Of a stretch of DNA of 64,000 bases, positions 20,809 to 44,083 are shown in pieces (positions within the stretch are counted from its first letter, which is position 1; each line of letters begins with the position of its first letter). This stretch comes from Ehretia macrophylla (taxonomy: Eukaryota; Streptophyta; Magnoliopsida; Boraginales; Ehretiaceae): assembly GCA_037974665.1 (NCBI GenBank), contig CM075775.1, forward strand, positions 40,016,152 to 40,080,151, written 5' to 3'. The notes below the pieces were generated by a model. That model worked only from the letters and a program-made list of their open reading frames with translations. It made no database searches and was not told the origin of the DNA. The position numbers were made by a program, and so were the translations under genes.

Positions 20809-20826
20809 TGAGTTCATAAGGACTCA
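20809..20826 (+). other. Conserved small hairpin, family-1 copy
   Basis: TGAGTTC and GGACTCA pair over seven positions with one G-T wobble, around loop ATAA, after 'cccctcgc'. Then follow 'cactcttttatcat' and 'ctcag'. The other copies are at 29221-29238, 38490-38507 and 46906-46923, and at 5569-5585 on the minus strand. Confidence 0.65.
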
Positions 20827-21540: not shown

Positions 21541-21810
21541 CCTTATAGAAAGAATGGTATCAGAGCTTAGATTGCTTAAGCCGGGTTTAACTCTCGGACA
21601 ATGGGTAGAAGCCCTTAGGTAATTAGGATGACTTGTTATTGTGTGATAATGTTAATTATGCCTTCTATGTTCTATGTGCTTATGTGAATAACTTGTCTTA
21701 ATTGTTTCTAGAACTATGTGTTTATGTAAAATTGTATGTTGTATACCTCATACATTAAATTCTTGTTTGTCGTATTTCAATAAATTGTGCATCGTAATTT
21801 GTGCCTATAG
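21541..21810 (+). mobile_element. Family-1 leader with primer-binding site (nested copy)
   Basis: The primer site tggtatcagagc is at 21555-21566, 14 bases after the LTR end, and is complementary to the 3' end of initiator Met-tRNA. The remaining leader to the gag start codon at 21811 is AT-rich and non-coding. Confidence 0.85.
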
Positions 21811-22640: not shown

Positions 22641-22649
22641 GAACAGACT

Positions 22650-22870
22650 AGTTAATAACCATGGCCCTACTAAAGCACCATCAGCCTCTTCTACCAGCGG
22701 ATCCACAGGTAGTTCGCCTGCTGCTCAGTCTGTCAACTATTCTTACTGTGACAAGAAGGGGCATACTGAGGCCCAGTGCTAGAAGAAGTCAGGACAATGT
22801 GTGCGGTGTGGCAGTGATCAGCATCAGATCAAGGATTACCCTAAATGGCAAGCAGGACAAAATCAAGTTA
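22650..22870 (+). pseudogene. Nucleocapsid zinc-knuckle region fossil (nested copy)
   Basis: Two CCHC-like stretches can be seen, around 'CDKKGHTEAQC' and 'CVRCGSDQHQIKD', in the place where chromovirus Gag has its RNA-binding zinc knuckles. Serine/proline-rich linkers surround them. Confidence 0.75.
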
Positions 22871-22899
22871 AACCATCTGGTAGAGGCAAGACTCCAGTT

Positions 22900-23340
22900 C
22901 CTAGAGTTCAGGCTCGAGCTTATGCTATTGAGTGCGAGGAGCTTCCGGACGAGACCGCTGTTGTTGAAGGTACATTCTTCATACTGAGTCAACCTGTTAG
23001 GGTGCTAATTGATCTAGGTGCTTCTCATTCATTTATTACTCCCTTATGTGTGCAACGTGTGAAACTGAGAGTTGTATGTTTGCCTTACGAAGTAGAAGTT
23101 GGTACTCCGATGGGTTCTAAACTTGTTACTAGCTCAGCTTGTAAAGCATGTAAAATCCAAATTAAAGATAGGGAATTCTCAGACAATCTTATTGTATTAC
23201 CCTTTATTGACTATGAAGTCATTTCAGGGATGGACTGGTTGGCAAAGCATCCTGTCCAACTAGATTGCCGGACGAAGATTGTAACATTCCGAATACCTGG
23301 TCAACCAATACTGGAGGTAATGGGTTGAAGAGATTTCACC
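22900..23340 (+). pseudogene. Aspartic protease fossil (nested copy)
   Basis: The retropepsin active-site region reads 'VLIDLGASHSFI', close to the DSGA/DTGA signature of Ty3/gypsy proteases. It is followed by the typical 'EVISGMDWLAKHP' segment, where 'GMDWL' is a conserved hallmark. The enzyme matures Gag-Pol. The region lies between nucleocapsid and RT, as expected. Confidence 0.85.
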
Positions 23341-23439
23341 AGGAGTTCTATCATTTCATCTACGAAAGCAGTGAAGTCCTTGAGAAAAGGGTGTAGTGGA
23401 TACTTAGCTTACCTCATTAACAAGCCGTCGGACAAAGCT

Positions 23440-24260
23440 AACTTGGAAGAGATGCTAGTGATCAAAGACTATGCGGATGTGTTTCCAGAAGAATTTCCTG
23501 GTAGACCCCCAAATCGAGAGATCGAGTTCATTATAGAATTACTGCCTGGCACCCAACCGATATCTAAAGCTCCCTATCATATGGCACCAGCCGAGCTACA
23601 AGAATTGAAGGACCAATTGCAAGGATTGTTGAAGAAGGGGTTCGTTCAACCAAGTTCTTCTCCATGGGATGCACCAGTCCTATTTGTAAAGAAAAAAGAC
23701 GGAACGTTGAGGCTATGCATCGATTACCGATGATTGAACCAAGTGATCGTCAAGAATAAAAACCCACTTCCACTGATCGACGAATTGCTTGATCAACTTC
23801 AAGGAGCCAAAGTATATTCGAAGCTCGACTTGAGGCAAGGGTACTATCAGTTGTGGATCAAAAAGGAGGATGTGCCTGAAAGGCGTTCAGGACGAGATAT
23901 GGGCATTATGAGTATGTGGTGATGCCATTTGGGCTAACTAATGCCCCTGCAACTTTTATGGACTTGATGTACAGGGTGTTTCAACCCTACTTGGACCAAT
24001 TTGTGGTGATCTTCATTGATGATATTTTGGTATACTCGAAATCTGAGGCTGAGCATGAACAACATCTGCGATTGGTATTGCAGAAACTTCGAGAGCATCA
24101 ATTGTATGCAAAGTTTAGCAAATGTGAATTTTGGTTGCAGCAGATTGCATTTTTGGGGCATATCATATCCCAAGAGGGAATAGCAGTGGATCCAGCAAAG
24201 ATAGAAGCGGTGATGTCTTGGAAGAAGCAGGAAAACGTTACAGAGGTTCGGTGTTTTCTT
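23440..24260 (+). pseudogene. Reverse transcriptase fossil (nested copy)
   Basis: RT motifs appear in order: 'DVFPEEFPG' and 'RPPNREIEF' at the start, '[20 protein letters not shown]', 'LRLCIDYR', '[13 protein letters not shown]', '[16 protein letters not shown]', and the catalytic 'FIDDILVYS' with its double aspartate. '[11 protein letters not shown]' and '[11 protein letters not shown]' lead into RNase H. The pattern is that of plant chromoviruses. The region is part of a broken polyprotein. Confidence 0.92.
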
Positions 24261-24399
24261 GGTCTAGCAGGCTATTATCGGTGGTTCGTGAAGGATTTCT
24301 CAAAGATCGCAGGACCGCTTACGAAGCTCACTCAAAAGAAAACAAAGTTCGTATGGGATGAAAAGTGTGAGAACAATTTCCAAGAATTGAAGAAAAGAT

Positions 24400-24800
24400 T
24401 GACTACTACACCCGTTCTTGCATTGCCTGAAGGGAGTCAAGGTTTTGTAATCTATAGCGATGCTTTGAAGGAAGGACTAGGTTGTGTGTTGATGCAAAAT
24501 GGTAGAGTGATTGCATATGCTTCTAGGAAACCGAAGCTGTATGAATTGAACTACCTGAGGCATGATTTGGAGTTAGCGGCTATTGTGTTTGCACTCAAGA
24601 AATGGAGGCACTATCTGTGGGGTAACAAGTTCGAGGTGTTTACTGATCACAAGAGCTTGAAATACTTGTTCTCAAAAAAAGAGTTGAACATGAGGCAAAG
24701 ACGATGGATGGAGCTTTTGGATGATTATAACTGCACAATCAATTATGTGCCTGGTAAAGCAAATGTAGTTGCAGATGCCTTAAGTCGGAAAGCGAGCATG
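24400..24800 (+). pseudogene. RNase H fossil (nested copy)
   Basis: The RNase H domain of Ty3/gypsy Pol is seen as '[18 protein letters not shown]' and 'VIAYASRK', then '[18 protein letters not shown]', '[11 protein letters not shown]' and 'VVADALSRK'. It degrades the RNA of the RNA-DNA hybrid during reverse transcription. Confidence 0.9.
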
Positions 24801-24899
24801 GCAAAACTGGAAGTCAAGGTACAAGAGTTGTTAGAGGAAACATTCTTGTGGAAACCACAATTAACTCAAAAAGGGTTACTTTTTGCCACTACATAAGTT

Positions 24900-25840
24900 C
24901 AATCGACCTTGTTGTCTGAATTAAGAGAGGCTCAACAGAAGGACCAACAGTTTCAGAAGATTAAAGAAAGCAACACAGATTTTAAGTTTCATGATGATGG
25001 TATTTGGAGGTTTAGGAATCGGATTTGTGTTCCTAATGAGCCAGAGTTGAAAAAGAAGATTATTGAAGAAGCCCATAATTCAAGATACACTATCCACCCC
25101 GGTGGAACAAAGATGTAATGGGATTTGAAGCAACACTATTGGTGGAATAACATGAAGAGAGAGATTGCGGAGTTTGTGGCACGGTGGTTGACTTGCCTGA
25201 GAGTCAAAGCAGAACATCAACGACCAGCATGTTTACTTCAGCCATTGGAAATCCCTCAATGGAAATGGGAACGTATAACTATGGACTTTGTTATGGACCT
25301 GCCCAGGTCACAAAAAGGTCATGACGCCGTTTGGGTCATAGTGGATAGATTGACTAAGTCAGCGCATTTCTTACTGATGAACATGGAGGATAATCCTGAG
25401 AAATTGGGAGATATGTATGTGGTGGAGATTGTAAGAGTGCACGGGATGCCTGTCAGTATTGTATTGGATAGGGATCCTCGTTTCACTTCCCGATTTTGGA
25501 AGAGATTGCAAGAAGCTTTGGGAATGAAGTTGGGTTTCAGCACGGCTTATCACCCTCAGACTGATGGACAATCAAAGAGAACTATTCATATTCTGGAAGA
25601 TATGCTGAGGGCGTGTGTTTTAGACTTCGGGAAAGGTTGGGAAAAATATCTGTCTCTAGCGGAGTTCGCTTATAATAATAGTTATCAGGCCACTATCGGA
25701 ATGGCCCCATTTGAGGCGTTGTATGGACGTATGTGTCGATCCCCAATTTACTGGGATGAAGTAGGTGAGACGAAGACTTTTGACCCGACCCTTCTACCTG
25801 AACTTATGAAGACTGTTGATAATATCTACCTCATCCGGAA
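24900..25840 (+). pseudogene. Integrase fossil (nested copy)
   Basis: The N-terminal zinc-binding part is visible around 'HNSRYTIHPGG' and 'LTCLRVKAEH'. The catalytic core follows, with 'WERITMDFVMDLP', 'VWVIVDRLTKSAHF', 'DRDPRFTSRFWK', '[20 protein letters not shown]' and 'FAYNNSYQATIGMAPFEALY'. The D-D-E residues lie in the usual blocks. The family inserts into nuclear DNA with 5-bp duplications, as seen for its relatives in this window. Confidence 0.9.
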
Positions 25841-25899
25841 ACGGATGCTTACCGCCCAAAGCAGGCAGAAAAGTTATGCAGACCGACGGAGACAGAGTC

Positions 25900-26340
25900 T
25901 AGAGTTTGAGGTCGGCGACAAGGTGTTCTTGAAGATATCACCCAGGAGGGGACTGATTAAACACAGCAAGGGAGGAAAGTTGAGCCCGAGGTTTGTAGGA
26001 CCATTTGAGATAATTGAGAATGTTGGCAGATTGGCGTATCGCCAGGCACTACCCCAAAACCTCTCCAATATTCACGACGTCTTTCATGTTTCAATGCTAC
26101 GGAAGTATCACCCTGATCCATCGCATATCTTGGAGCCAGAGCCGTTGCAACTTCGAGAGAACTTGTCTTATGAAGAGAAGCCCATTCGGATCCTAGACCA
26201 GTAAGATCGGGAGTTGCGCAACAAATCTATACCGATGGTGAAAGTGTTATGGGATCACCATGAAGTTGAAGAAGCGACGTGGGAAAGGCGAGACCAGATG
26301 GAGCAACAATATCCAGCATTATTTCAAAGGTTATATTGAA
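25900..26340 (+). pseudogene. Integrase C-terminus with chromodomain-like tail (nested copy)
   Basis: The GPY/F-type segment reads 'GKLSPRFVGPFEIIENVG', followed by 'DVFHVSMLRKYHPDP'. The last part holds 'IPMVKVLWDHH' and 'EEATWERR', which corresponds to the degenerate (group II) chromodomain of the Tekay/Del clade. In chromoviruses this tail is thought to steer integration to heterochromatin, which suits the satellite setting here. Confidence 0.8.
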
Positions 26341-26360
26341 TTTTGGGAAAAAATTCTTTT

Positions 26361-26373
26361 AAGGAGGGGAGGA
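26361..26373 (+). other. Polypurine tract (nested family-1 copy)
   Basis: 'aaggaggggagga' lies directly before the 3' LTR and is the expected plus-strand primer. The same tract is at 44071-44083 in the other family-1 element. Confidence 0.85.
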
Positions 26374-29300
26374 TGTGAGGCCCGAACTCGATTTGCGTGC
26401 GATACCTCGTTTTGTGTGCCCTAACCTAGATTTGCGTGCTTTGACCTAGGTTTAAGAGTCGTGTTTCATTTTGTGTGCCTTGCATTGAATTACGTGCATT
26501 CATTTAGGGTTGCGTGCATTTACTTGGGAAACGTGCATTCGTCTCGTAGTTCGTGCCTTACCTCATAGTGCGTGCCCTAAACCTAGGAAAGCGTGCCCTC
26601 ACGCTAATCAAGAAAGCATCTTACACGAAGCACTAGATCATTAATTAATCCTACAAATTCCACTAACTAATATTAAATTGCTAATTCAACCCACTAGAAG
26701 ACAAAATCTCACAAAAAGCTAGACATTCTTTATTCTTTGCATATCCCAAACACACAATAAATTATTGCTCAACCAAGACAAAAATTCAGATTTTAACACA
26801 CCCTTGGCCGACCACTCGGAGCCATTGTCCATGCATTTTAATTTCAAATTCTATTCCTAAACATTCTATGACAATTCTATGACACAAAGCAATAAAAAAA
26901 ATTAGCTCAAAACCCTCCTCAAAGCTCCAAATCTCGACACAAGCTCCTTGCCCATGCTCAACACTTCAAATGATGCTTCTTGATGACACAAAATCTGAAT
27001 TTGCAAGGCCCTAGGCCGACATATGCATCAATCTCTTCAAGGCTTTTCATTTTTCTTTCACTCTTCTTTCTTTCCCTCATTCTTCTCTCTCTCCCTCCCA
27101 TTTCTCTCTCTCTCTCGGCCTTGGCTGAGTTTCTACACTCCATAGCTTAACTTCATCACTCAATGGTTCATCATGACACGCAAGAAGCTCAGGATCTCGA
27201 CCAAGCAAAACTAGGAGCAAAGAAGCACACATGCAAGCCTTTAGCACATCCATTTTAGTTTAGTTGAGTTTGTTAGCTTCCATTTCTTTTCTTCTTGTTC
27301 TAACCACATGCACCTACTAAGAACATGGTCACTTAGCTAGGAAATTAGAGAAAATCAAGTGGTCTCTCGGCGAAGCAAAGAAAAGCCTCGACATTGTGCT
27401 TCATCAAGAGTTTGTGCATCTCTTTGTTGTCTTGCTAAGGTGAGGGCTAAAACTTCTTGAAAAGCTTTCAAAATCCACATGCATGCCCTTAAATGTCTAT
27501 CTTTACTTCTGTACTTGTGATTTATGTGTGTTCATGAGCTTTTGTAAACATACATGGCAAGATATTTGGCTAGAATGTGATGATAGATGAAATTGGGTAT
27601 GTGACAGCCTTCTGGCTTGTTGGTACTAGGTGATTTTGACCAGGTAAATGATGTTAAAAATGTACGAAAGTTGGTAGGTAACTAGTTTTGCCAGTTTTGA
27701 GCATTTTTCACAGAAATTGGCCAAAGCTAATTTTGACTCTAAGTCCTCAAAATGGCAAATTATCAAAATGTATCCAAATCTGGAAAGTCTGGAAAAATGA
27801 AGCAGGTTTTGGCAGATTCACTGACTTTGTAGAACGAACCAGTTTTTGACTTAGTAAATGAAATCAAAAATGCATGAAATTTGGTGTGCATCTATATTTT
27901 TCAGTTCTGGACATTTGTGTCAGAAATGGACTAAGCTAAATCTGACCCTAAGGCCCTCAAAAACGACAAGTATTGAAATGTGCGCAAATCTAGATAGTTT
28001 TGTGTAGTCTCACTGTTTTGGCTATAACTCTTGAACCCGAACTCCAAATGATGTGAGGTTTGTTTCTAAATTTAGTTCACTCCTTAAGATTTAATTTGAC
28101 ATCTTTTTCATTGGAATTGGAGATTGTTTGCTTGTCTTAATAATTTTGAGAAAACAGTCCATTGCAGTGAGGGTTTCACCTATTGATATGCTTAGAAAAA
28201 TTACTGTAGCTTCTCTTGTTGTATTAAATGCTTGGGATTGTGGCATTTGGATGTTGTGTGGACTGTTTTGAATGCTTGAGAGTGTTGAATTAATCAATGC
28301 ATGGCTTGAGTTTAATTACGTGACAACTTATGGCTCAATCGTACAGGTGAGCATGAAATGAAATCCTAATGGCTAGGAAAAACTCGCTAAGCGTTGATCT
28401 TATGAATATCGTGTTTGATTATGAAATTAGTAGGCTGCCCGTAGTTGCCCTTGTAGCCCTAAACGTGATTTCGATGATTACATGTTGACAAGTAGGCCTT
28501 TCTTATACCCGGTCCCATATAGATGTCGTTGCGTGATGAATAATCTTATTATTTGATTACGTGAACTTTGAAATGAGTTATATGACTTGATTTACATGTG
28601 TTACATGGTTACCCATTTAATATTCATATAACTCCATGTGCTTTTCAAGTGAACTTGTCTGTCATATTGTGCCTCGCTTGTTTACTTATCAATGTGCAAT
28701 CTTATGACTGTTCGGAGGTAACCTACTTTGTTGTCCTCCTAATGTGATATATTACATGTCATAAACGTGCATTGCATACAAGGTTGCAACCTTTCATTCT
28801 GGCATGGTAGCGTTCATGCACACCAAGCGGCATGGGGCTTGCCGATGTAACCGTGACTACCATTGTCCAATTCCCTCTCTCGCTTGGGGGCTAGACTTCC
28901 TCGCATAGTTGGGTCGTAGGATTTCAGGGTACATCCGGAGTACACCCATTTGGCGTGATAATGGGATGAACTGAAGCTGGCCGTAGCAATTGATACTGGA
29001 ATTGAACTAAGAGCAAAAGCTCATCGTATCCTTTTCACTATGTGTATAAGTACTCTCACTTGGTTCTTAGAGGACCTTGGGGAGGAAAGACGGGTAATTG
29101 TGTTCCTTTACTTTTATATTACGTTATGTACTTACTTGTGATATATTCATGCTTGCAAAAAGGGTTTTAAGAAATAACCGGAAAAATGAGTTTCAAAACT
29201 TATTTCTCGTTCTCCCTCGCTGAGTTCATAAGGACTCACCCTCTTTTATCATCTCAGGTGAAGAAGACCAGGAACAGGTACCCGAGGACGACGTGCCTAA

Positions 29301-29950
29301 CGATGATTCCTTGGAATGATTGCTTGCCCTACGTGCCTTGCTTGACTATGGCCATTTTGTGAACAATATGTTGCTTGAAGACTATTTCATTTCTTATGAT
29401 GCTTGTTGTTGTAATGTAAAAGACCCCCGTTGTAATTTAGGGTCAAATTTTGGCTTGTACTGATAATAACTAGATAGACACTACTATGGTCATTTTTGCT
29501 ATCATTATTGGCTAGTATCTATCATAGGATTATGAAGTATCAGGTAAGGACTAAGTAAAATGAACCTATCCAATCTTAAGTAGGTACTCATTGTTAAGCT
29601 AAGATCAACATGTACTTTTGTAACAAGGACAAACAAACAAACGAGACATAGTATCATGCTAGGTTGTTAATTAAACGAGACTTCGAGATAACTGGTAGAC
29701 GTTTCGATTGGTTATAAATAGTAATCTTAGTTGGAAATAAAATTGAGATTGGAAATTTTGAGGCGTTTAGAGAATTAGGTCAAACTAAAGGGCCCAATTA
29801 CAGCCGTTATGCTCGGTTTTCCAGAAAATTGTGGAGTTTAGGCTAAAATGGTAAGTGCTAAACTTTCATGAATGATTAAGTACGAGATATGACTTGAATG
29901 TTTAGATCACACCCTAGTCTAACCTTTATAGGCCGGGTTGAGGCGTGACA
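26374..29950 (+). repeat. Family-1 3' LTR (nested copy)
   Basis: It is 3,577 bp long, from 'tgtgaggcccgaactcg' to 'gaggcgtgaca'. It carries the same parts as the 5' LTR: CT tract at about 27045-27115, old direct repeats at 27640-28000, leader hairpin at 28927-28947 and small hairpin at 29221-29238. It ends against family-2 interior sequence at 29951. Confidence 0.95.
27640..28000 (+). repeat. Old direct repeats of about 200 bp inside family-1 LTR
   Basis: Segments from about 27650 and about 27850 align with each other. Both run through 'gtaaatga', 'aaatg', 'cattt', 'cagaaat', 'ctaa', 'ctcaaaa', 'aaatgt' and 'caaatct' at an offset of 200-210 bp, with perhaps two thirds identity. All family-1 LTRs have the pair, so the duplication predates them. 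Confidence 0.7.
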
Positions 29951-31117
29951 TAATGTGTGTATTAGAATGTCTTGAATTGGTTGTGCCGTGATTTGAACTG
30001 ATTATGTTGTGCTTGACTTGATTGTCGTGCTTGAGTGACTTTGTTGAATAAATTGTTTTATAAACTGTTTTACAAACATGCTTGCATAATAGATTAAGGC
30101 ATATATGTATAAATGTGATATATTGGCATTCATACATGTCCCGTTGGAATGGTAAGAAAGACTTCTTCCTTCCCCTGAAGAGAAGTGGTTAGTAGCAGGC
30201 CCTCCAAGTCATATGGATTGACGGGAATGAGCAGTATTTGACTAGCCTTTATTTGGGAGTTGGTGTTTGCTTTTGGAGCTTGGCTATTGGCGAATCTCTA
30301 AGGTCCTCCTCTGTGCTTAACAGTTGTGAAAGAGTAGCTTTCTTTTGGGGTTCTATTTGGTTGTTCTATGGAGCATTCTTTGGTTTTCTTATTGGGTATT
30401 CTTTGGAGCTTCTGTTGGCGCTTCTTGGTAGACTTGGCTATTGGGGTTCCAATCGGACTTACTGCATGGTATTATCTATGGTATATGTGTCTCGCTCTTT
30501 ATTGGTGTTTTACTGGCATTCTTTATTGGCAATTCTTCAATAGTATATGGTGCACCTGTACGACATTCGCTATGGTATTTTACCCAATATTCGGTAGCAA
30601 TACTATTTTGGGAATCTACTTGGTTATTCAGCTTGGTGTTCATTCATGGACTTTTGATAAGTATATATATGTTGGCGTACATTTTGGATTCCCTATTCAG
30701 ATACTTCTTGAGCTATATTTTGGAAGACTTCCTTGACACTTCTGTAATATGATTGACTAGATTTCTTGTTTGGAGTCTTCCTGAGCAGTACTTGGGTTCT
30801 CGTTTAGACTCTACTTCAGACTGTTTATTGGTATGTTCTCGGTACTTTTAGTTGGGATTCTATTATGGCATTCATGTCTAGTAAGATTTTTATTTGGAGC
30901 TCTATTTGGTATTCTCTAGAGCCTTTATTTGGCCTTATTATTTTGGAATTTTTGGGCAGTACTACTCGGGTTTCTTAGATTGGTTTTCTTCAGATGTCCT
31001 TAAGTAGTGTCTTGCTCAGCAACTGATGAAGATTAGTCAAATTTGGATGTCAGATGATGCAGAGTCCTATTGGAAGAAGAATTGCGAGGACGCAATTGTT
31101 TTAAGGGGGGAATGATG
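29951..31117 (+). mobile_element. Family-2 interior, right part, with polypurine tract
   Basis: This is non-coding interior of the family-2 element. After a GT/TG-rich start, 30235-31020 is a T- and G-rich stretch of loosely repeated 'tttgg', 'ggagct' and 'attctt' words. Three overlapping frames of 101-122 codons here (30238-30752) are hydrophobic by composition and resemble no known protein. The polypurine tract 'aaggggggaa' is at 31103-31112, just before the 3' LTR at 31118. No gag or pol motif was found on either strand. Confidence 0.8.
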
Positions 31118-33857
31118 TGATAACCAGAATCTGGCATGCATTTAATAGCATTTGACTATATTTAATTAAGTGTTTAATTAGTTAATCATCCATTTTTGCA
31201 CTATTTTGATATTTCTTTTAGAAGCATTCAATAATTTTTTTATATTGATTAATTAAAAGATTATCACCTATTTTTATTATTTATAGAAATTGGATTTACT
31301 TTCTTGTATTTAATTAAGTGTCATCTTAAATGTTAGTATTTAATTGCATTTGATTACATGTTTATATTAACTTGTTCATTCGTATATTAGCATTAATTTC
31401 ATAATTATTTAAAATATTCTAGAAATAGTTAAATTAATTATTTTTAAATGAATATTGATTATTTTGATTGTTTTGATTATTTTAATAATCGGTTTTATTT
31501 TCTTGCAATTAATTACTCGATTTTCAATTAAATGAGAAAAGTAACTCCGAGCCAGAGTGAATTTTAAACTATTCTACTATTCTACTTTTCAAAAATTATA
31601 GTTTTATATTATTGCTCATCATTTGATTAGCGATCGTTTCTTGACTATTCGATCGTAGCATTTCGAAAATGGAAGTTAGAAGAATATTTCTCGGATTTCG
31701 TGAATAGCGTTTCTAGTTTAATTTAGCTAGTTTTAGTTGGTTTTTATTAAAATTGCATTGTTTTAACTTGGATTAGATTAAATGACATCAAAATAAGCTA
31801 ATTTGACCATTTTTAACTTGATTTTTGACCAAGCATTTAGCCTTTGACCATTTTACCCCTTTGTGTCATCTTTTAAACAAAAGAAAAGAAAAAAAAATAA
31901 AACAAGGCAAAAAATCAGCCCATGGGCGAAACTCAAGGGAAAAGAAAGAAAAAAATTTCTTTTGCATTTTTTTCTTCAAACTTGCGTGGTATCGGACGAG
32001 GATCGTGGCTCGGGTCCTTGCGGGTCTTGGACTTCAATCTTTGTGAAGGTTTTCACGTTTTTGTGCATTTTTATTTGAATTTGATTTTGATTCAATTTCC
32101 TAGATTTGATATTTACTGCGTTATAATGCCTGTTATTGCTTGAAATAACTTCCTTAGGGTTCGTAGAGCATTGCATTTTAGTTATTTTACAATTTTTATA
32201 GCTAGAATTGCAAATTTGAAATTGGGGAAGAACAATAATAGTGATTTTTAATAGTAAAACCCTAGAATTTCGGATTTTGATCCGAATTGCGATTTTTTGA
32301 TTTGGATATGTGCCATTAGTGATAGAAAGATAAAATGTGTAATGAAAATGGACCGGCCTTTGTTAAAATTGAAAATTAGACAAAGAAACAGAAAGGGGTC
32401 GTTTGACCAACTGTTGACCGTGCTCGAATTGAGTTGGAGGTTTTGTTATTGAGGGCATTGAAGCGCATTTGGCGCTGTTGTGGCATTGATTGAGTGTCCG
32501 GTTGATATAGCTGTAGTTCAAACGCAGTAGGTGGACTTTCGGGCTTCGGTTGGGAAAGTGAAGTTTCGTGATATAGAAACGTGTCTTGCAGTACCTAAGT
32601 GAATGTAGTGAAATCGGTTTCTTAATCCCGTAGCTCGTTTGCTCGTAATTGCCTTTGGAAGTTAGAGATTGAATAGTGATATTTGTCGTTTTCGTGTTTG
32701 AACTGTTATTACTTGTTTGATTGATGTTATTGTTGATATTAATGATAATCATGCTTGAAAAGTTAATTGATTGCTAATATGGATTATAAATGCTTGATAT
32801 CTCGTTTATCGCCACTAATCTGCACTTTCGTGCTATCGCTCATTTATTGCTTGTATCTTATTGCATTGCATAGTGTCAAGCGCGTGAGTGATGGGCCTCT
32901 TTGGGTAGTCTCGGGCTGCCAGGGTTGGTTGCTCTAGCTCCGTGTCCTATTCCCATTCTCGCTAGGATTGTAGCCCTGGGAGATTTGGGTCGTAGATGTG
33001 TCGGGGTACATCCGGAGTACATCCAGTGGATGTTATAAGGTGGTTGCGCGCTTATTGTCATCATTGTCAACATCAAGCTCGAGATTGATATATCGCTCGT
33101 GACATGATACATTATTCGTATGAGTGAACCGTGACCTTCAAAGTGTGGTATAGCTTTGAATGGTTGTGTTAATGCTTTCTTTAATTGTTTATTGTATTGT
33201 CGTTTATATTGAATGCTTTCTTATTGATTATATTGCTTGACTGTACCTATTTGCATTGCACGATCTTCTTTCTCTCCACCTCGATATCTGTTTTGCCCTC
33301 ACTGAGTATACGTGTTGTGTATACTCACTCATCACCACCACATTTCAGAAAATGCCATGTTAGGTAGAAAGTTCGTGGTTACGTGAATGATCGTGCTTGA
33401 AGAGTTGTCTTGCGTGTTATGTGGCTGAGTTGTAGGAAGATGCAAAGATGTATGTTTTCATATATTGTATGTATTTAGTGTTAAAAGTTATGTAATTAAC
33501 TTAACTAGGTCTATTAGAATGGTATGATAGTCTATTTTATGTATAGGTTAGTATAGTTTAATTGCCAAGCATGAATGTACTTGTCAAAGATGAGAAGAGA
33601 TAGGTTAGCTTTTAAACTGTAAATGTATATTTACTTGTGTTCGCTTGTTGAGAACCAAGGCTCGGATGGCCTTGAGGTGTTTGTATGGTTGGACACGGTG
33701 CTGGTCCACTTATATGTTGTCACAGGTTTTTGCATTTTGCCTAAAAACAGGGGAGACTCCGTCTGTTTTCCCTAAAATTTATGTCCGGGTTTGGAATTGG
33801 GTTGCAATTAGATTGATTGATAGAACTTCCGGTCTCGAGAGGGATCGGAGTGTTATA
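31118..33857 (+). repeat. Family-2 3' LTR
   Basis: It is 2,740 bp long, from 'tgataaccagaatctgg' to 'ggatcggagtgttata'. It carries the leader module (about 32875-33045) and the hairpin (33303-33327). It ends against satellite, with ggtgc as the first bases. Confidence 0.95.
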
Positions 33858-34832
33858 GGTGCAGCCGAGCATACTTGCTACCCCCGTCGTAGAGCTCTCG
33901 GAGAGCTTTCCAACGGTATGCTGTGCGCCGCGTAACTCCTTACGGATCAAAAGTTATGGGCACCGGAGCAACGGAGACCTGGTCCCAAGCCCCACGCCCT
34001 CGGTTTACGGGCCCAGCCTCTACGTGAAGCGAAGTTGTCTTGCCCAAGGTGCCGTGGGATTCAATAATAGAAATGTGATGGATTAGGCTGTCGTCCTTTT
34101 CACGGCTCACAACGTATGATCCGGGACGAAAAAACAGCGCAAAAGAAGAAAAGTGTCCCAAAACAGATGAAAACATTCGATTTTGGGCTCCGAAAACAGG
34201 CGCAGTCGAGTAGGCTTGGTGCCCTTATCGTAGAGCTCTCAGAGAGCTTTCCAACGATATGTTGTGCTCCGCGTAACTCCTCAAGGATCAAAAGTTATGG
34301 GCACCAGAACGACGGCAACCCGGTCCTAAGCCCCACACCCTCGGTTTACGGGCTCAACCTCTATGTGAAGCGAAGTTGTCTTGCCTAAGGTGCCATGGGA
34401 TTCGATAATAGAAATGTGATGGATTAGGTTGTCGTCCTTTTCGCGGCTCACGACGTACGATCTGGGACGAAAAAATAGTGCAAAATAAGAAACATGTCCC
34501 GAAACTGATGAAAATGATCGATTTTGGGCTCCGAAAACAGGTGCAGCCGAGCAAGCTCATTGCCCCCGTCTTAGAGCTCTCGGAGAGCTTTCCAACGGTA
34601 TGTTGTGCGCCGCGTAACTCCTTACAGATCAAAAGTTATGTGCACCGGAGTGACGAAGACGGGGTCCCAAGCCACACGCCCTCGGTTTGTGGGCCCAGCC
34701 TCAACGTGAAGTGAAGTTGTCTTACCCAATATGCCATGGGATTCGGTAATAGAAATGTGATGGATTAGGATGTCGTCCTTTTTGCGGCTCACGACGCACG
34801 ATCCGGGACGAAAAAATAGTGCAAAATAAGAA
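33858..34832. repeat. 341-bp satellite, block 4
   Basis: Almost three monomers follow the family-2 LTR, with register marks at 33976, 34317 and 34658. Variant types and their order resemble 2.7-3.7 kb of block 1, for example the 'gtaggcttggtgccc' monomer followed by the 'aaaataagaaacatgtccc' monomer. The block stops at about 34832, where LTR sequence reappears. Confidence 0.95.
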
Positions 34833-35298
34833 GATGCAAAGAGTTGTCTTGCGTGTTATGTGGCTGAGTTGTAGGAAGATGCAAAGATGTATGTTTTCAT
34901 GTATTGTATGTATTTAGTGTTAAAAGTTATGTAATTAACTTAACTAGGTCTATTAGAATGGTATGATAGTCTATTTTATACAATAGGTTAGTATAGTTTA
35001 ATTGCCAAGCATGAATGTACTTGTCAAAGATGAGAAGAGATAGGTTAGCTTTTTAAACTGGAAATGTATATTTACTTGTGTTCGCTTGTTGAGAACCAAG
35101 GCTCGGATGGCCTTGAGGTGTTTGTATGGTTGGACACGGTGCTAGTCCACCTATATGCTGTCACAGGTTTTTGCATTTAGCCTAAAAACAGGGGAGACTC
35201 CGTCCGTTTTCCCTAAAATTTATACCCGGGTTTGGAATTGGGTTGCGATTAGATTGATTGATAGAACTTCCGGTCTTGAGAGGGATCGGGGTGTTACA
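34833..35298 (+). mobile_element. Second copy of family-2 LTR tail, co-amplified with satellite
   Basis: 34841-35298 matches the last 456 bp of the family-2 3' LTR (33402-33857), including the terminus, which is again followed directly by 'ggtgcagccgagc'. The LTR-satellite joint is therefore present twice, about 1,441 bp apart, at the same base. A few bases at 34833-34840 ('gatgcaaa') look like filler copied from the LTR. A separate insertion would not give the same joint, so this is a duplication of LTR end plus satellite. Confidence 0.88.
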
Positions 35299-35647
35299 GG
35301 TGCAGCCGAGCAGGCTTGCTGCCTCCGTCGTAGAGCACTCGTAGAGCTTTCCAACGGTATGTTGTGCGCCGCGTAACTCCTTACGGATCAAAAGTTATGG
35401 GCACCGGAACGACGGCAACCCGATCCCAAGCCCTACGCCCTCGGTTTACGGGCTCAGCCTCTACGTGAAGCGAAGTTGTCTTGCCTAAGGTACCATGGGA
35501 TTCGATAATAGAAATGTGATGGATTAGGTTGTCGTCCTTTTCGCGGCTCACGACGTACGATCCGGGACAAAAAAATAGTGCAAAATAAGAAACATGTCCC
35601 GAATTTGATGAAAAAGTTTGATTTTGGGCTCCGAAAACAGGTGCAGC
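35299..35647. repeat. 341-bp satellite, block 5
   Basis: About one monomer (register mark 35417) follows the duplicated LTR tail. It matches the second rather than the first monomer after 33857: both have 'cggcaaccc', 'ttacgggctca' and 'aaaataagaaacatgtcccg'. The duplication joint has thus been shuffled by one monomer. The block ends with TSD gcagc at 35643-35647. Confidence 0.93.
35643..35647. repeat. Target-site duplication gcagc (family-1 element)
   Basis: gcagc at 35643-35647 is repeated perfectly at 47666-47670. The joined flanks give the regular satellite segment 'aggtgcagccgagc'. Confidence 0.95.
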
Positions 35648-38600
35648 TGTGAGGCCCGACCTCGATTTGCGCGTGATACCTCGTTTCATGTGCCCTAGCC
35701 TAGATTTACGTGCCTTAACCTAGATTTAAGAATCGTGTTTTATTTTGTGTGACTGGCATTGAATTACGTGCATTCATTTAGGGTTGCGTGCATTTACTTG
35801 GGAAACGTGTATTCGTCTCGTAGTTCATACTCTACCTCGTAGTACGGTCCCTAAACCTAAGAAAGCGTGTCCTCACGCTAATCAAGAAAGCATCTTACAC
35901 GAAGCACTAGGTCATTAATTAATCCTACAAATCCCACTAACTAATATTAAATTACTAATTCAACCCACTAGAAGACAAAATCTCACAAAAAGCTAGACAT
36001 TCTCATTCTTTATTCCTTATTCTTTTGCACTTTCAAAACACACAATTAAATAATGCTCAAAAGATGACAAAGATTCAGATTTTTCAAGCCTTGGCTGACC
36101 ACCTTGTGTGCCTTGTGATTGCTTTGCATAATTCAAATCTTATTCCCAAACATTCTATGACATTCTATGACACAAAGCAATAAAAAATTAGCTCAAACCC
36201 TCCTCAAAGCTCTAATTCTCGACACAAAGCTCCTTGCCCATGCTAGGAAATTCAAAAACCATGCTTCTTCAAGACACAAATCTAAAATTTGTATGCCCAA
36301 GGCCGACACATGCTTCATCAATTGCAAGGCTTTCATTTTTCTTTCATTCTTCTTTCTCCCTCTCATTCTTCTCTCTCTCTCTCTCTCGGCTTTGGCTGAG
36401 TTTCTACACTCCATAGCTTATCTTCATCACTCCATGGTTCATCAAGGCAAGCAAGAAGGTAGGGAGCTCGACTAAGCAAGCTAGGTTGCAAAAAAAACTC
36501 ACATGCAAGCTTATTAAACATCCATTTCGGCTTCAATGAGTTTGCTAGCTTCCATTTCTTTTCTTCTTGTTCTAACCACATGCACCTACTAAGAACTTGG
36601 TCACTAAACTAGGAAAACTAGAGAAAAATCGAGTGGTGCCTCGGCTAAGCAAGGAAGAAGATCAACTTTGTGCTTCACCAAGAGTCTTGTGCATATTCTT
36701 GAAAATCTTTCAAAAAAAACTTCTTGAAAATCTTTCAAAAAAACCACATGCATGTCCTTAAATGTCTATCTTTACTTCTGTACTTGAGATATATGTGTGT
36801 TCATGAGCTTTTATAAACATGCATGGCAAGATTTTTGGCTAGAATGTGATGATAGATGAAATCGTGCATGTGACAGCTTTCTTTCTTGTTGGTGTAAGGT
36901 GATGTTCTCTAGGTAAATGATGTTGAAAATATATGAAAATTGGTAGGTAACTATTTTTTCCAGTTCTAAAAATTTTCTGCAGAAATAGGCCAAAGCTAAT
37001 TTTGACTCTAAGGTCCTCAAAATGGCAAATCATTAAAATGTGTCCAATTTGGAAAGTCTGAAAAAATGAAGCAGGTTTTGGCAGATTCACTGACCTTGTA
37101 GAACGAACCAGTTTTGACTTAGTAAAGGACATCCAAAATGCATGAAATTTGGTGTGCTGCTATATTTTTCAGTTCTGGACATTTTTTTCACAATTGGACT
37201 AAGTCAAAATCGGAACCTAAGGACATCATAAACGACAAGTATCGAAATGTGTGCAAATCTAGACAGTTTTGTGCAGTCCCACTGTTTTGGTTATAACTAT
37301 TGAACCCGAACTCCAAATGATGCCAGGTTTGTTTCTGAATTTAGTTCACTTCTTAAGCTTTAATTTGACATCTTATTCACTGTAATTGGAGATTTTTTGC
37401 TTGTCTTAACGATTGTGAGAATACAACCCATTGCAGTGAGGGTTTCACTTAGTGATATGCTTAGAAAAATTATTGTAGCTTCTCTTGTTGTATTAAATGC
37501 TTGGAATTGTGGCATTGGGATGTTGTGTGGACTGTTTTGAATACTTGAGGGTGTTTGAATTAATTGATGCATGGCTTAAGTTGATTTCGAGATGACTTGG
37601 GGCTTCATCGCACGGGTGAGCACGAATTGGAACCCTAGTAACTAGGTGAATTTGCTAAGTGTTGATCCTTTGGATGTTGTGTTGGATTATGTGTTTAGTA
37701 GGCTGCCCGGAGTTGCCCTTGTAGCCCTAAATATGACTTCAATGATTTCATGTTGATAAGTAGGCTTTTCTTGCACCCAGTCCCACGTAGATGCCGTTGC
37801 ATGATGAATAATCTTATTATTTGATTACGTGAACTTTGAAATAAGTTATATGACTTGATTTACGTGCGTTACATGGCTGCCCATTTAATGTTCATATAAC
37901 TCTATGTGCCTTTCAAGTCAAATTACTTGTCTTATCGTGCCTCGCTTGTTTACTTGTCAATGTGCAATCTTATGACTGTTCGGAGGCAACCTACTTTGTT
38001 GTCCTCCTATTGTGATATATTAAATGTCATAAATGTGCATTGCATACAAGGTTGCAACCTTTCATTCTGGCATGGTAGCGTTCACGCACACCGGGCGGCA
38101 TCGGGCTTGTCGGTACAACCGTGACTACCATTGTCTAATTCCCTCTCTCGCTTGGGGGCTAGACTTCCTCGGAGAGTTGGGTTGTAGGATTTCAGGGTAC
38201 ATCCGTAGTACACCCATTTGGCGTGATAAGGGGATGATTTGAAGTCGACCACAACAACTGATACTGGCAATGAACTGAGAGCAAAAGCTCACCGTAATCT
38301 TTTCACTATGTGTATAAGTACTCTCGCCTGGTTCCTAGAGGACCTCGGGGAGGAAAGACGGGTAATTGTATTCCTTTACTTTTATATTTTGTTATGTACT
38401 TATTTATGATATATTCATGCTTGCAAAAAGGGTTTTCATAAGTTGAACCGGAAAATGAGTTTCAAAACCTATTTCTCGTTCCCCCTTGCTGAGTTCATAA
38501 GGACTCATCCTCTTTTATCATCTCAGGTGAAGAAGATCAAGAACAGGTACCTGAGGACGACGTGCCTAACGATGATTCCTTGGAATGATTGTCTGTCCTA

Positions 38601-39252
38601 TGTGCTTTGCTTGATTATGGCCATTTGTGAACACTATGCTGCTTGAAGACTATTTCTTTTCATGTTGCTTGATTTTTTTAATGTAAAAGACCCCCGTTGT
38701 AATTTGGGGTCGAATTTTGGCTTGTACTGATAATAACTAGATAGACACTACTATGGTCGTTTTGCTATCGTCATTGGCTAGTATCTATCATAGGATTATG
38801 AGATATCAGGTAAGGACTAAGTAAAATGAACATGTCCAATCTTAAGCAGGTATTAATTGTTAAGCCAAGATCAACAGGTACTTCTGTAACGAGGACAAAC
38901 AAACAAACGAGACATAGCATCATGCTAGGTTATTAATCAAACGAGACATAGCATCATGCTAGGTTATTAATCAAACGAGACTTCAAGATAATTAGTAGGC
39001 GTTTCAATTGATGATAAATACTAATCTTAGTTGGAAATGAATTTGAGATTGTAAATTTTGAGGCGTTTAGAGAATTAGGTCAAACTAAGGAGCCCAATTA
39101 CAGCCGTTATGCTGTCGGTTTTCCGGAGAGTTTGTGGAGTTTAGGCCAAAATGTTAAGTGTTAAACCTTCATAAACGGTTAAGTATGTGATATGACTTGA
39201 ATGTTAGATCACACCCTAGTCTAACCTTTATAGGCCGGGTTAGGGCGTGACA
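35648..39252 (+). repeat. Family-1 5' LTR (satellite copy)
   Basis: It runs from 'tgtgaggcccgacctcg' to 'tagggcgtgaca'. CT tract at about 36330-36390, leader module at 38050-38235, small hairpin at 38490-38507, and the subfamily tandem duplication around 'gacatagcatcatgctagg' at 38904-38975. Confidence 0.95.
38904..38975 (+). repeat. Tandem 35-bp duplication marking an LTR subfamily
   Basis: The word 'gacatagcatcatgctagg' with 'ttattaatcaaac' occurs twice in a row. The 3' LTR has the same pair at about 47326-47390, but the nested copy has it once per LTR (about 21233 and 29644). The duplication therefore predates this insertion and separates two family-1 lineages. Confidence 0.8.
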
Positions 39253-39525
39253 CCTTATAGTAAGAATGGTATCAGAGCTTAGATTGCTTAAGCCGGGTTT
39301 AACTCTCGGACCATGGGTAGAGCCCTAAGATAATTAGGATAACTTGTCTATATGTTATTGTGTGATAATGTTAATTGTGCCTTCTATGTTCTATGTGCTT
39401 AAGTGATTAATATGTCTTAATTGTTTCTAGAATTGTGTATCTGTATTATGTTGCATATCTCATGCATTAAATTCTTGTTCGTCGTATTTCAATAAATTGT
39501 GCATTGTAATCTGTGCCTATAGGTA
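39253..39525 (+). mobile_element. Family-1 leader with primer-binding site (satellite copy)
   Basis: The primer site tggtatcagagc is at 39267-39278, 14 bases after the LTR end, as in the nested copy. The rest is AT-rich leader up to the gag region. Confidence 0.85.
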
Positions 39526-40330
39526 GCTGGCCCTAGTACCCGCACCACTAATACGAGCGGTGAACCCCAAGAGACTGGAGATGCTTATCAAACTAATCCC
39601 GGCATGGCTATGTTTAACATGATGGCAAATGCCATGGATCGCGTGTCGCGGGTGATAGAACGTCAAGATGCACGTGAAGCTAATAAAAACAACAACAACA
39701 GGAATTATGGTAACCATGGGAGACATAGCAGAATGAGAGAGTTCCTTGACTTTCGCCCGTCCAAATTCCACGGGGAAGTTGATGATGAGAAAGCAGAGGC
39801 TTGGATGTTTGAGATCGAGAGGATTTTCAGGCCACTTGATTATACTGATGAAGAAAAGGTGGAGTTTGCTATGTTTCTCTTGCACAGGGATGCTGAGCAT
39901 TGGTGGCACACTGTGGAGGCACTGTGGGAAACTGATCAGACGCCTCGCTTGTGAGGTAATTTCGTTAAGGCATTCAAGGAGAAATATGTACCTGCAGTTT
40001 CCAGGCAGAGGCGGATTGAGGAGTTCATGTACCTAAACCAGGGTAACATGATGGTGGCCCAGTACGAGGCTCGTTTTGACCGACTATCCCGCTATGCTCA
40101 ATACATGGTTAGTACTACAGAGGCGAAGATGTGGAAATTTACTACGGGATTGAGACCAGAGATTCAGGACCAGTTGGCTTCGCATGACTTCGATACCTAT
40201 TCTGCTCTCTTTGCTGCTGCTTCCTGAGTTGAGAAGAGGAAACTTGATAAAGCCGGTTCGAGTCAGCCGAACAAGAAACCATACTAGCCTTCAGGTCAAC
40301 AGAGGAAATTCCAGGGCCAGAGTCGTAATC
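39526..40330 (+). pseudogene. gag: gag capsid region fossil (satellite copy)
   Basis: It is homologous throughout to the gag region at 21811-22640. Shared core segments include 'FRPSKFHGEVDDEKAEAW', 'EHWWHTVEALWE' and 'TGLRPEIQDQLASHDFDTYS'. The asparagine run is shorter than in the nested copy. It is a clear Ty3/gypsy Gag and is broken. Confidence 0.88.
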
Positions 40331-40339
40331 AGGGCCAGA

Positions 40340-41050
40340 GCCAAAACAAACCAGTTAATAACCGTGGCCCGACTAAAGCGCCATTTGCCTCTTCCACCTG
40401 CAGATCCACAGGTAGTTCACATGCTACTCAGTCTATCAACTATTCTTATTATGACAAGAAATGACATACCAAGGCCTAGTGCTGGAAGAAGACAGGACGA
40501 TGTGTGCGGTGTAGAAGTGATCAGCATCAGATCAAGGATTGCCCTAAATGGCAAGCAGGACAAAATCAGGGTAAACCAGCTGGTAGAGGCAAGACTCTAG
40601 TTCCTAGAGTTCAGGCTCGAGCTTATGCTATTGAGTGCGAGGAGCTTCCAGAGGATACCGCTGTTGTTGAAGGTACATTCTTCATACTGAATCAACTTGT
40701 TAGGGTGCTAATTGATCCGGGTGCTACTCATTCATTTATTACTCCCCTATGTGTGCAACGTGTGAAACTATGAGTTGTATGTTTGCCTTACGAAGTAGAT
40801 GTTGGTACTCTGATGGGTTCTAAACTTGTTACTAGCTCAGCTTGTAAAGCATGTAAAATTCAAATTAAGGATAAGGAATTCTTAGCCAATCTTATTGTAT
40901 TACCTTTTCGAGGCTATGAGGTCATCTTAGGGACGGATTGGTTGGAAAAACATCATGCCCAACTAGATTGCCGGACGAAGTTTGTAACATTCCAGGTACC
41001 TGGTCAACCAATACTGGAGGTAATGGGTCGAAGAGATTTCACCGAAAGTT
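40340..41050 (+). pseudogene. Nucleocapsid and protease fossil (satellite copy)
   Basis: The zinc-knuckle region (about 40440-40560) is followed by the aspartic protease, with 'VLIDPGATHSFI' at its active site and 'EVILGTDWL' further on. Order and spacing match the nested copy. Broken. Confidence 0.82.
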
Positions 41051-41149
41051 CCATCATTTCATCTACGAAAGCAGTGACGTCCTTGAGGAAAGGGTGTAGT
41101 AGATACTTAGCTTACCTCATCAACAAGCCGTCAGACAAAGCTAAGTTGG

Positions 41150-41990
41150 AGGAGATGCCAGTGATCAAAGACTGTGTGGATGTGTTTCCAGAAGAATTGC
41201 CCGGTTTACCCCAAATCGAGAGATCGAGTTCATTATAGAGTTACTGCCTGGCACCCAGCCGATATCTAAAGCCCCTTATCGTATGGCAGCGAGCTACAAG
41301 AATTGAAGGACCAATTGCAAGGATTGTTGAAGAAGGGGTTTGTTCAACCAAGTTCTTCTCCGTGGGGTGCACCAGTCCTATTTGTAAAGAAGAAAGACGG
41401 AAGGCTGAGGCTATGCATCGATTACCAAGGATTAAACCAAGTGACTGTCAAGAATAGATACCCACTTCCACTGATCGACGAGTTGTTTGATCAACTTCAA
41501 GGAGCTAAAGTGTATTCGAAACTCGACTTGAGGCAAGGGTACTATCAGTTGCGGATCGAAAAGGAGGATGTGCCTAAAACGGCTTTCAGGACAAGATATG
41601 GGTATTATGAATATGTGGTGATGCCATTTGGACTAACTAATGCCCCTGCAGCTTTTATGGACTTGATGCACGGGGTGTTTCAAGGTGTTTCAACCCTAGT
41701 TGGACCAATTTGTGGTGATCTTCATTGATGATATTTTGGTATACTCGAAATCCGAGGCTGAGCATGAACAACATCTACGGTTGGTACTACAGAAACTTCG
41801 AGAGCATTAATTGTAAGCAAAGTTTAGCAAGTGCAAATTTTGGTTGCAGCAGATTGCATTTTTGGGGCATATCATATCCCAAGAGGGAATAGCAGTGGAT
41901 CCAGCAAAGATAGAAACAGTGATGTCTTGAAAGAAGACGGAAAACGTTACGGAGGTTCGGAGTTTTCTTGGTCTAGCTGGCTATTATCGG
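41150..41990 (+). pseudogene. Reverse transcriptase fossil (satellite copy)
   Basis: Recognised by '[20 protein letters not shown]', 'LRLCIDY', '[15 protein letters not shown]', '[16 protein letters not shown]' and the following catalytic aspartate block with its downstream connection segment. Same clade as the nested copy. Broken. Confidence 0.9.
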
Positions 41991-42099
41991 AGATTCGTTA
42001 AGGATTTCTCTAAGATTGCTGGACCACTTACAATGCTCACTCAAAAGAAAACAAAGTTCATGTGGGATGATAAGTGTGAGAACAGCTTCCAAGAATTCA

Positions 42100-42520
42100 A
42101 GAAAAGATTGACTACCACGCCTGTTCTCGTATTGCTTGAAGGGAGTCAAGGTTTTGTAATCTATATCGATGCTTCGAAGGAAGGACTAGGTTGTTTGTTG
42201 ATGCAAAATGGTAGAGGGATTGCGTATATTTCTAGGAAACCGAAGCCGTATGAATTGAACTACCAAACGCATGATTTGGAGTTAGCGGCTATTGTGTTTG
42301 CACTCAAGAAATAGAGGCACTATCTATGGGATAACAAGTTCAAGGTGTTTACTGATCACAAGAGCTTGAAATACTTGTTCTCACAAAAAAAGTTGAATAT
42401 AAGGCAAAGGCGGTGGATGGAGCTTTTGGATGATTATAACTGCACAATCAATTATGTGCCCGGTAAAGCAAATGTAGTTGCAGATGCCTTAAGTAGGAAA
42501 GCGAGCATGGCAAAACTGGA
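42100..42520 (+). pseudogene. RNase H fossil (satellite copy)
   Basis: It shows '[18 protein letters not shown]', '[11 protein letters not shown]', '[11 protein letters not shown]' and 'VVADALSRK', colinear with the nested copy. Broken. Confidence 0.88.
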
Positions 42521-42619
42521 AGTTAAGGTGCAGGAGTTGTTGGAGGAAGCATTTTTGTGGAAACCACAATTAACTCGGAAATGGTTACTTTTTGCCACTA
42601 CACAAGTTAAATCGACCTT

Positions 42620-44045
42620 GCTGTCTGAATTACGAGAGGCTCAACAGAAGGTTTAACAGTTTCAGAAGATAAAAGAAAGCAACACAGATTTCAAGTTTCA
42701 TGATGATGATGGTGTTTGGAGGTTTAGGAATCGGATTTGTGTTCCTAATGAGCCAGAGCTGAAAAAGAAGATTCTTGAAGAAGCCCATAATTCAAGATAT
42801 ACTATTCACCCCGGCGGAACAAAGATGTACCGGGATTTGAAGCAACACTATTGGTGGAATAACATGAAGAGAGAGATTGTGGAGTTTGTGGCACGGTGTT
42901 TGACTTGCCAGAGAGTCAAAGTGGAACATCAACGACCAGCAGGTTTAGTTCAGTCGTTGGAGATTCCTCAATGGAAATGGGAACATATAACTATAGACAT
43001 TGTTATGGACCTGCCCAGGTCACATAAAGGTCATGACACCGTTTGGGTCATAGTGGATAGATTGACTAAGTCGGCGCACTTCTTACCGATGAACAAGGAG
43101 GATAGTCCTGAGAAATTGGGAGATATGTATGTGGCGGAGATTGTAAGATTGCACGGGATGCCTGTCAGTATTGTATCAGATAGGGATCCTCATTTTACTT
43201 CCTGATTTTGGAAGAGATTGCAAGAAGCTTTAGGAACGAAGATGAGTTTCAGCACGGCTTATCACCCTCAGACTGATGGACAATCGGAGAGAACTATTCA
43301 GATTCTAGAGGATATGCTGAGGGTGTGTGTTTTAGACTTCGGGAAAGGTTGGGAGAAATATGTCTCTAGCGGAGTTCGCTTTTAATAATAGTTACCAGGC
43401 CACTATCGGGATGGCCCCATTTGAGACGTTGTATGGACGTAAGTGTCGATCCCCAATTTACTGGGATGAAGTAGGTGAAATGAAGACTTTTGACCCGATC
43501 CTTCTACCTAAACTTATGAAGACTGTTGATAATATCCACCTCATCCAGAAACGAATGCTTACCGCCCAAAGCAGGCAGAAGAGTTATGCAGACCGACGGA
43601 GATGGAGCTTAGAGTTTGAGGTTGGCGACAAGGAGTTCTTGAAGATATCACCCCGGAGGGGACTGATTAAAAACGGCAAGGGTGGAAAGTTGAGCCCGAG
43701 ATTTGTAGGACCATTTGAGATAATTGAGAAGGTTGGCAAATTGGCGTATCGCCTGGCACTACCCCAAAACCTCTCCAATATTAACGACGTCTTTCATGTT
43801 TCGATGCTGCGGAAGTATCACCCTGATCCATTGCATATCTTGGAGCCAAAGCCGTTGCAGCTTCGAGAGAACTTGTCTTACGAAGAGAAGCCCGTTAGGA
43901 TCCTAGACCAGCAAGATCGGGAGTTGCGCAACAAATCTATACCGATGGTGAAAGTGTTGTGGGATCATCATGGAGTTGAAGAAGCAACGTGGGAAAGGCG
44001 ATACCAGATGGAGCAACAGTATCCAGCTTTATTTCAAAGGTAATA
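42620..44045 (+). pseudogene. Integrase and chromodomain-like tail fossil (satellite copy)
   Basis: The zinc-binding N-terminus ('HNSRYTIHPGG', 'LTCQRVKVEHQRPAG'), the catalytic core ('VWVIVDRLTKSAHFLPM', 'DRDPHFTS', 'NNSYQATIGMAPFETLYG') and the C-terminal GPY/F segment ('LSPRFVGPFEIIEKVG') are all present. The tail 'IPMVKVLWDHHGVEEATWE' is the Tekay/Del-type degenerate chromodomain. Broken as a whole, though the C-terminal third is well preserved. Confidence 0.9.
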
Positions 44046-44070
44046 TTGAATTTCGGGACGAAATTCTTTT

Positions 44071-44083
44071 AAGGAGGGGAGGA
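44071..44083 (+). other. Polypurine tract (satellite copy)
   Basis: 'aaggaggggagga' lies directly before the 3' LTR at 44084, identical to the nested copy. Confidence 0.85.

Follow-up and report, generated by a model that had tools for sequence, protein, structure and literature searches.

Two LTR/satellite joints in one array

The window considered here, i.e., the whole 64,000-nucleotide stretch of Ehretia macrophylla contig CM075775.1 that was analysed (C12:40016152-40080151 in a genome of 1.58 Gb in 20 contigs), holds arrays of a 341-bp satellite with long terminal repeat (LTR) retroelements nested inside, and we infer that it lies near the centromere. One of these retroelements, the family-2 element E, spans 15035-33857 and has the two LTRs and the GGTGC on both sides by which an LTR-element insertion is recognised; its 3' LTR runs into the satellite at 33857/33858 (joint 1, ...GGAGTGTTATA/GGTGCAGCCGAGCA...), and a second, truncated LTR end meets the identical satellite base at 35298/35299 (joint 2, ...GGGGTGTTACA/GGTGCAGCCGAGCA...), 1,441 bp further on. 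The features at and between the joints are as follows:

31116-33857, + strand: 3' LTR of E, whose final 458 bp (33400-33857) are tail 1
33858-34832, + strand: satellite monomers m1 (33858-34198) and m2 (34199-34539) and partial monomer m3 (34540-34832), starting with the right-hand copy of the GGTGC target-site duplication (TSD; 33858-33862)
34830-34842, + strand: 13-nt filler of a putative repair scar, GAAGATGCAAAGA, identical to LTR positions 33436-33448
34839-35298, + strand: tail 2, which copies the LTR end in truncated form and has nothing else of the element
35299-35647, + strand: satellite monomer m4 plus 8 bp, right of joint 2

A first-pass annotation of this DNA had already pointed to a second joint about 1,441 bp from the first, and that is confirmed, the best offset being exactly 1,441 (602 of 799 positions agree, against 186-319 for the 24 other offsets in the range 1,430-1,454). 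Its description of the joint as repeated “base for base” holds for the position of the joint and for the first 14 satellite bases, but not for the LTR side, where 2 of the final 11 bases differ. A different LTR terminus at the second copy, which the annotation would have taken to mean an independent insertion, was not found, as both copies stop at the normal LTR end. The two tails are 96.5% identical over 456 columns, and a count over 454 positions gives 14 mismatches (3.1%). Of the LTR, tail 2 has no more than the final 456 bp; the left end was lost at the scar, and only the right-hand GGTGC is left to it.

The scar, its paralogue and the flanking satellite

A third junction, absent from the first-pass description, sets satellite against LTR interior at 34830-34842: the satellite reaches to 34832, the 13-mer occupies 34830-34842, and the LTR then resumes at the equivalent of 33400. 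The filler overlaps the satellite by 3 nt (GAA, 34830-34832) and the resuming LTR by 4 nt (AAGA, 34839-34842, equal to 33400-33403), and a match to any 10-mer of the scar junction arose in 52 of 20,000 shuffled tails. A filler copied from nearby, together with microhomology at the junctions, is what marks templated-insertion end joining of the polymerase-theta type, and the left end of tail 2 has the pattern of an end-joining scar with a templated insertion. As m3 ends after 293 of its 341 bases and m4 begins at base 0, the array would be nearly in register with the patch removed, the net loss of satellite at the scar being about 48 bp.

The same contig carries a diverged paralogue of this segment at +104,242, in which the two joints and the exact scar are present again; the colinear match between the two reaches at least from window position 1820 to about 48,400 (of the seven probes placed beyond the compared 5-kb piece, two are colinear, one ambiguous and four non-colinear). 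Between window and paralogue, divergence amounts to 2.1% for the LTR body, 0.7% for tail 1 (3/456), 2.4% for tail 2, 0-4.6% for the monomers and 4.3% for the opening 1.3 kb of the family-1 LTR. This divergence is patchy, as if from conversion or polishing: tail 2 differs at 11 of 455 positions, all before 35105, m4 at 0 of 349, and m1 at 14 of 341, which are clustered. The two-joint feature predates the duplication of the segment. The paralogue also has a 7.8-kb deletion, by which satellite (9539) has come to adjoin an interior position of E's 5' LTR (17370). Its junction (around 2861 of locus L069; C12:40137760) lies some 50-55 bp away from where the window's scar falls in the LTR, so that the two breakpoints share one short LTR stretch.

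The wider setting of the joints comprises the following features:

15030-15034, + strand: left-hand TSD of E, GGTGC, 5 bp
15035-17775, + strand: 5' LTR of E, about 2.74 kb (Kimura two-parameter distance to the 3' LTR 0.050)
18018-29950, + strand: family-1 LTR element nested within E, with gag, protease, reverse transcriptase/RNaseH and integrase fragments
35648-47665, + strand: second family-1 LTR element in the same array, with a perfect TSD, GCAGC
47666-48700, + strand: satellite monomers m5-m7, resuming after the second family-1 element, which served for testing the duplication model

Had the tail and the satellite to its right been duplicated together in tandem, the divergence should be equal across both, and it is not: m4 differs from m1 at 36 of 341 positions (10.6%), m5 from m2 at 55 of 341 (16.1%) and m6 from m3 at 47 of 291 (16.2%), the first of these comparisons departing strongly from the 14/454 of the tails (Fisher p = 2e-5). 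The satellite might simply change faster than the LTR, and the paralogous segment offers a calibration, in which the four monomers by the tails (31/1334) against the LTR (39/2111) give a ratio of 1.26; 13 mismatches between m4 and m1 would then be expected, and 36 are seen (Poisson p = 2e-7). With the satellite pieces L084 and L085 added (91/2637), the ratio rises to 1.87 and the expectation to 20 (p = 6e-4). Because the satellite is so much more diverged than the tails, its duplication as a block with the tail is not supported, and the satellite right of joint 2 would instead be resident.

Nor did the claim that retroelement sequence is being drawn into satellite amplification, i.e., into a new repeat unit, survive a genome-wide search: the exact scar pattern occurs at two places in 1.58 Gb, namely the window and its paralogue, so that several tandem or dispersed copies of a chimeric satellite unit were not found in that search. 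Allowing 3 mismatches added one further match (the control also gave one), and a 200-bp probe spans the scar at 2 loci among the best 40 of 2,494 candidates. Among 25 other family-2 LTR ends, chosen by interior similarity regardless of flank, 2 adjoin this satellite, 5 adjoin the primer-site-like sequence and 18 adjoin other DNA.

As for E itself, another copy of its LTR (L046) starts with TGTGATAACC, in which E has TT in place of TG. Its 5' LTR is followed by GGTGGTATCAGAGC, which we take to resemble a tRNA-Met primer site. The remaining interior was lost or replaced by the nested family-1 element, and the piece retained (29951-31116) gave no Pfam match in the three forward frames and the one reverse frame scanned. 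Since, in addition, two family-2 LTR ends on C16 (77666951-77671908) lie about 4.5 kb apart, leaving an interior of about 1.8 kb, family 2 looks non-autonomous. In the satellite downstream (47666-64000), the mismatches between monomers twelve apart (mean 46, minimum 20, n = 11) are fewer than those at lags 1-11 (means 60-66), perhaps reflecting a higher-order repeat of 12 monomers, about 4.1 kb long. At 9 of 11 dispersed satellite loci (L089-L099), a block of 336-343 bp unmatched to the window monomer is followed by satellite in register, which may perhaps be a 682-bp dimer.

Routes to a second LTR end

The account that we prefer, tentatively and without going so far as to call it probable, is that tail 2 is a break-repair patch, copied from the m1 side into E's LTR and then end-joined with filler. 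E inserted with the TSD GGTGC, which is still seen on both sides of it; soon after, a double-strand break would have occurred in the satellite some three monomers to its right, and the right-hand break end in m4 would have paired with the homologous m1 beside E, extending leftwards across the E/satellite joint into the final 456 bp of the LTR. The copied strand would then have been released, one short template switch inside the LTR leaving the 13-nt filler that is seen, and joined to the left-hand break end in m3 through the 3-4 nt overlaps that are likewise seen at the scar, presumably by the enzymes of end joining. The same joint base, the truncated LTR, the filler, the resident satellite on the right and the loss, on balance, of about 48 bp of satellite are the grounds for this reading. 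The closest genome matches of tail 2 also count for the patch: among the best 40 of 5,328 candidates, self and paralogue aside, these are E's 5' LTR, the paralogue's 3' LTR and E's 3' LTR. The 7.8-kb deletion in the paralogue, which joins satellite to LTR interior, points to break repair acting on the same element.

Several observations weigh against the patch, the first of them concerning the descent of tail 2. Over about 455 positions there are 11 differences between it and the 5' LTR, 14 between it and the 3' LTR and 13 between the two LTRs, and when these columns were polarised with 28 other genome copies (the divergent tails L013, L017 and L019 being dropped here and from the second tree), all 23 differing columns proved private: 11 to the 3' LTR (10 without the trimming artefact at 33857), 7 to tail 2 and 5 to the 5' LTR, with none common to two tails against the rest. 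Tail 2, the 5' LTR and the 3' LTR therefore split almost simultaneously, and the absence of any change exclusive to tail 2 and the 3' LTR, against the 10 private to the latter, means that the copying was very early or that the tail came from a sibling of E. The best C16 copy, in the same set of candidates, scores merely 7 bits below E's 3' LTR. The three tails were monophyletic in a first tree (98 ultrafast bootstrap), but the addition of 7 copies (L075-L081) places L080, a copy on C1, among them with weak support, although the group of four, L080 included, keeps its separation from the other copies (98); as L080 falls inside the trio, its monophyly was dropped as proof of descent from E. What the sequences favour is a close relationship of tail 2 to E, descent from E being unproven. 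A further point is that, among the window's full-length monomers, m4 is closest to m2 (30/341) and then to m1 (36/341), which a pure patch does not predict; the others concern the joint base, to which the strongest rival appeals.

This rival, which follows close behind the break-repair patch and which we regard as doubtful rather than unlikely, holds that a sibling of E inserted independently at the same preferred base, within a few monomers of E, and that a deletion with filler subsequently removed all of it but the 3' end. How surprising the shared base is depends on where related LTR ends join the satellite in general. A single genome-wide joint position appeared only in the first searches, whose queries had been built on that very joint, and further queries were made with the satellite rotated by 68, 136, 205 (and 273) bases, the best 40 candidates being considered in each search. 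Apart from the locus itself and its paralogue, joint-spanning rows numbered 13, 11, 15 and 15 at phases 0, 68, 136 and 205, and 1 at phase 273; a script placed 53 of the 54 rows from phases 0 to 205, and L025 (72 satellite bases; near phase 8 by eye) was left out. Between chromosomes, 58 of 1,273 pairs share a phase, against 7.2 expected from uniform placement within 20 bases of the query; this count includes the hand-placed L023, L091 and L118, as well as L104 and L108, kept despite poorly defined LTR ends, and becomes 61 with L118 at 134 or 56 with script placements alone. Related LTR ends thus return to the same bases throughout the genome (56-61 of the 1,273 pairs), namely 3, 63, 72, 133/134, 202 and 218, with phase 3 holding 7 of the 12 joints read from the phase-0 query, phase 218 holding 7 and phases 133/134 holding 8, and a coincidence of 1 in 341 had to be rejected as the measure of a shared base, the joint phases being clustered. 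The phase-3 group, at which the window's second family-1 element likewise sits, has LTRs of several lineages, and these suggest that insertion may favour certain positions of the monomer; dispersal of one chimera is unsupported for this group, given its several LTR lineages and satellite flanks only 67-85% identical. Four phase-134 joints, all on C7, and the phase-218 pairs on C2 and C10 may be dispersed copies of one chimera.

Phase 0, i.e., E's own base, is not a rare position either. The phase-0 joint pattern, with up to 3 mismatches, has 30 matches (control, 8), of which 4 belong to the window and its paralogue; of the other 26, L024 had been read earlier, and 12 whose letters resemble LTR ends were read, yielding 6 family-2 ends with satellite behind them, 4 family-1 ends, another kind of end (L140) and a family-2 end without satellite (L135). 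At least seven other family-2 ends (L024, L132, L133, L134, L136, L137 and L138) therefore join the satellite at E's exact base, although L132-L134 have common satellite letters and are perhaps not independent, and at least four family-1 ends use it as well. This recurrence lifted our estimate for the independent insertion out of the range of the unlikely, and lowered that for the break-repair patch from nearly even to the tentative preference given above. The star-like relation of the tails, the nearly equal closeness of L080 and the C16 copies, and the resident satellite on the right also fit a second insertion. Against it stand the requirement for that insertion to fall within 1.5 kb in the same orientation, the fact that E's LTRs match tail 2 best, though only narrowly, and the between-chromosome coincidence of about 4-5% even with preferred bases, so that the chance of an independent insertion at the same base appears to be one of some per cent. 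The identical joint, offered in the first-pass annotation as direct evidence of array recombination, can no longer serve as such, since related LTR ends throughout the genome return to particular bases of the satellite, this one included; that the array recombined after the element had entered it nevertheless stands insofar as a later rearrangement is likeliest and the scar shows break repair, whereas the joint alone is no proof and the block duplication is unsupported.

Such a block duplication, the route originally proposed, seems unlikely to us. It would have the LTR tail duplicated together with several monomers, whether by a one-step 1.44-kb tandem duplication with filler or by unequal exchange and then deletion, the satellite being later overwritten by conversion or monomer loss. 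It accounts for the same joint base, and the filler scar fits a template-switching duplication too; m2 and m1 are m4's two nearest monomers in the window, m4 is a possible mosaic (its first 100 bp nearer m1, the rest nearer m2, 22/341 in total, with a breakpoint picked post hoc), and patches of satellite have been replaced elsewhere, as m1 differs at 14/341 between the paralogues and the adjoining tail at only 3/456. However, about 4-6% divergence would be expected for each of m4-m1, m5-m2 and m6-m3, far below what is seen, and the overwriting would have had to reach three or more monomers in a row and yet leave the tail untouched. The satellite after joint 2 had been said to match the second monomer after joint 1, and m2 is indeed its best match, if a weak one; the conclusion that the copies are one monomer out of register does not follow, as the distance between m4 and m2 (8.8%) is similar to that of older relations in the array (m1 to the monomer at 2708, 32 mismatches, 9.4%; m2 to that at 3049, 32 mismatches, 9.1%), leaving m4 as a recent copy of m2 unsupported and older array structure as the most likely source of the apparent match. 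An assembly artefact, in which joint 2 would be a misjoin or polishing product in a repeat, could draw on the patchy differences from the paralogue but is very improbable, because the joints and the identical scar stand in both segments, which are about 2-5% diverged and distinguished by a 7.8-kb deletion, and this makes a one-off misjoin unlikely, and because a templated filler is a repair signature that would be unusual as an assembly error.

Comparable systems and what the second tail means

In maize centromere 10, the rearrangements of CentC arrays and CR elements have been explained by double-strand-break repair with alternative end joining (Wolfgruber et al. 2016, PMC4806543), and the partial LTR elements, adjacent segmental duplications, microhomology junctions and chimeric monomers described there resemble what is seen here, although the adjacent duplications of maize carry whole blocks, and the passages of that paper considered here describe no LTR end copied with its joint beside resident satellite. 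Polymerase-theta end joining of aborted strand-synthesis intermediates has been shown in worms, with tandem duplication as its outcome, and in plants most such end-joining outcomes are reported to have templated insertions, often patchwork (Kamp et al. 2021, PMC8654963); an end extended on a homologous template, released and end-joined is common to the worm case and to the break-repair patch, whereas the template here would be a neighbouring satellite monomer. Duplication of centromeric elements after their integration is mentioned in a paper on Brachypodium (PMC10910784), and in a legume, satellites derived from retrotransposon tandem repeats are described as common (Vondrak et al. 2019, PMC7004042); there, as here, retroelement sequence and satellite arrays exchange material, but the legume satellites are tandemly amplified units, whereas one extra LTR end, its amplification not found, is all that is at issue in the window. 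Among the 69 records listed of 188 literature hits on satellites, centromeres and LTR elements, no title or abstract opening presents this configuration, which does not prove its absence. The second LTR end is a well-preserved case of a known kind of rearrangement.

An identical LTR/satellite joint alone is, as a matter of caution, no proof of common descent, given that two families recur at the same bases here. How far a tail has diverged, set against how far its flank has, tells block duplication and one-sided repair copying apart as routes by which retroelements can spread in satellites, and this test is applicable to any assembled array. Satellite homology may turn inserted retroelement ends into templates, a break anywhere in the array invading the monomer beside an element and copying the element's end elsewhere, a generalisation that we hold still more loosely than the break-repair patch itself; if true, such a use of element ends as templates would give rise to chimeric units with neither transposition nor duplication of the array.

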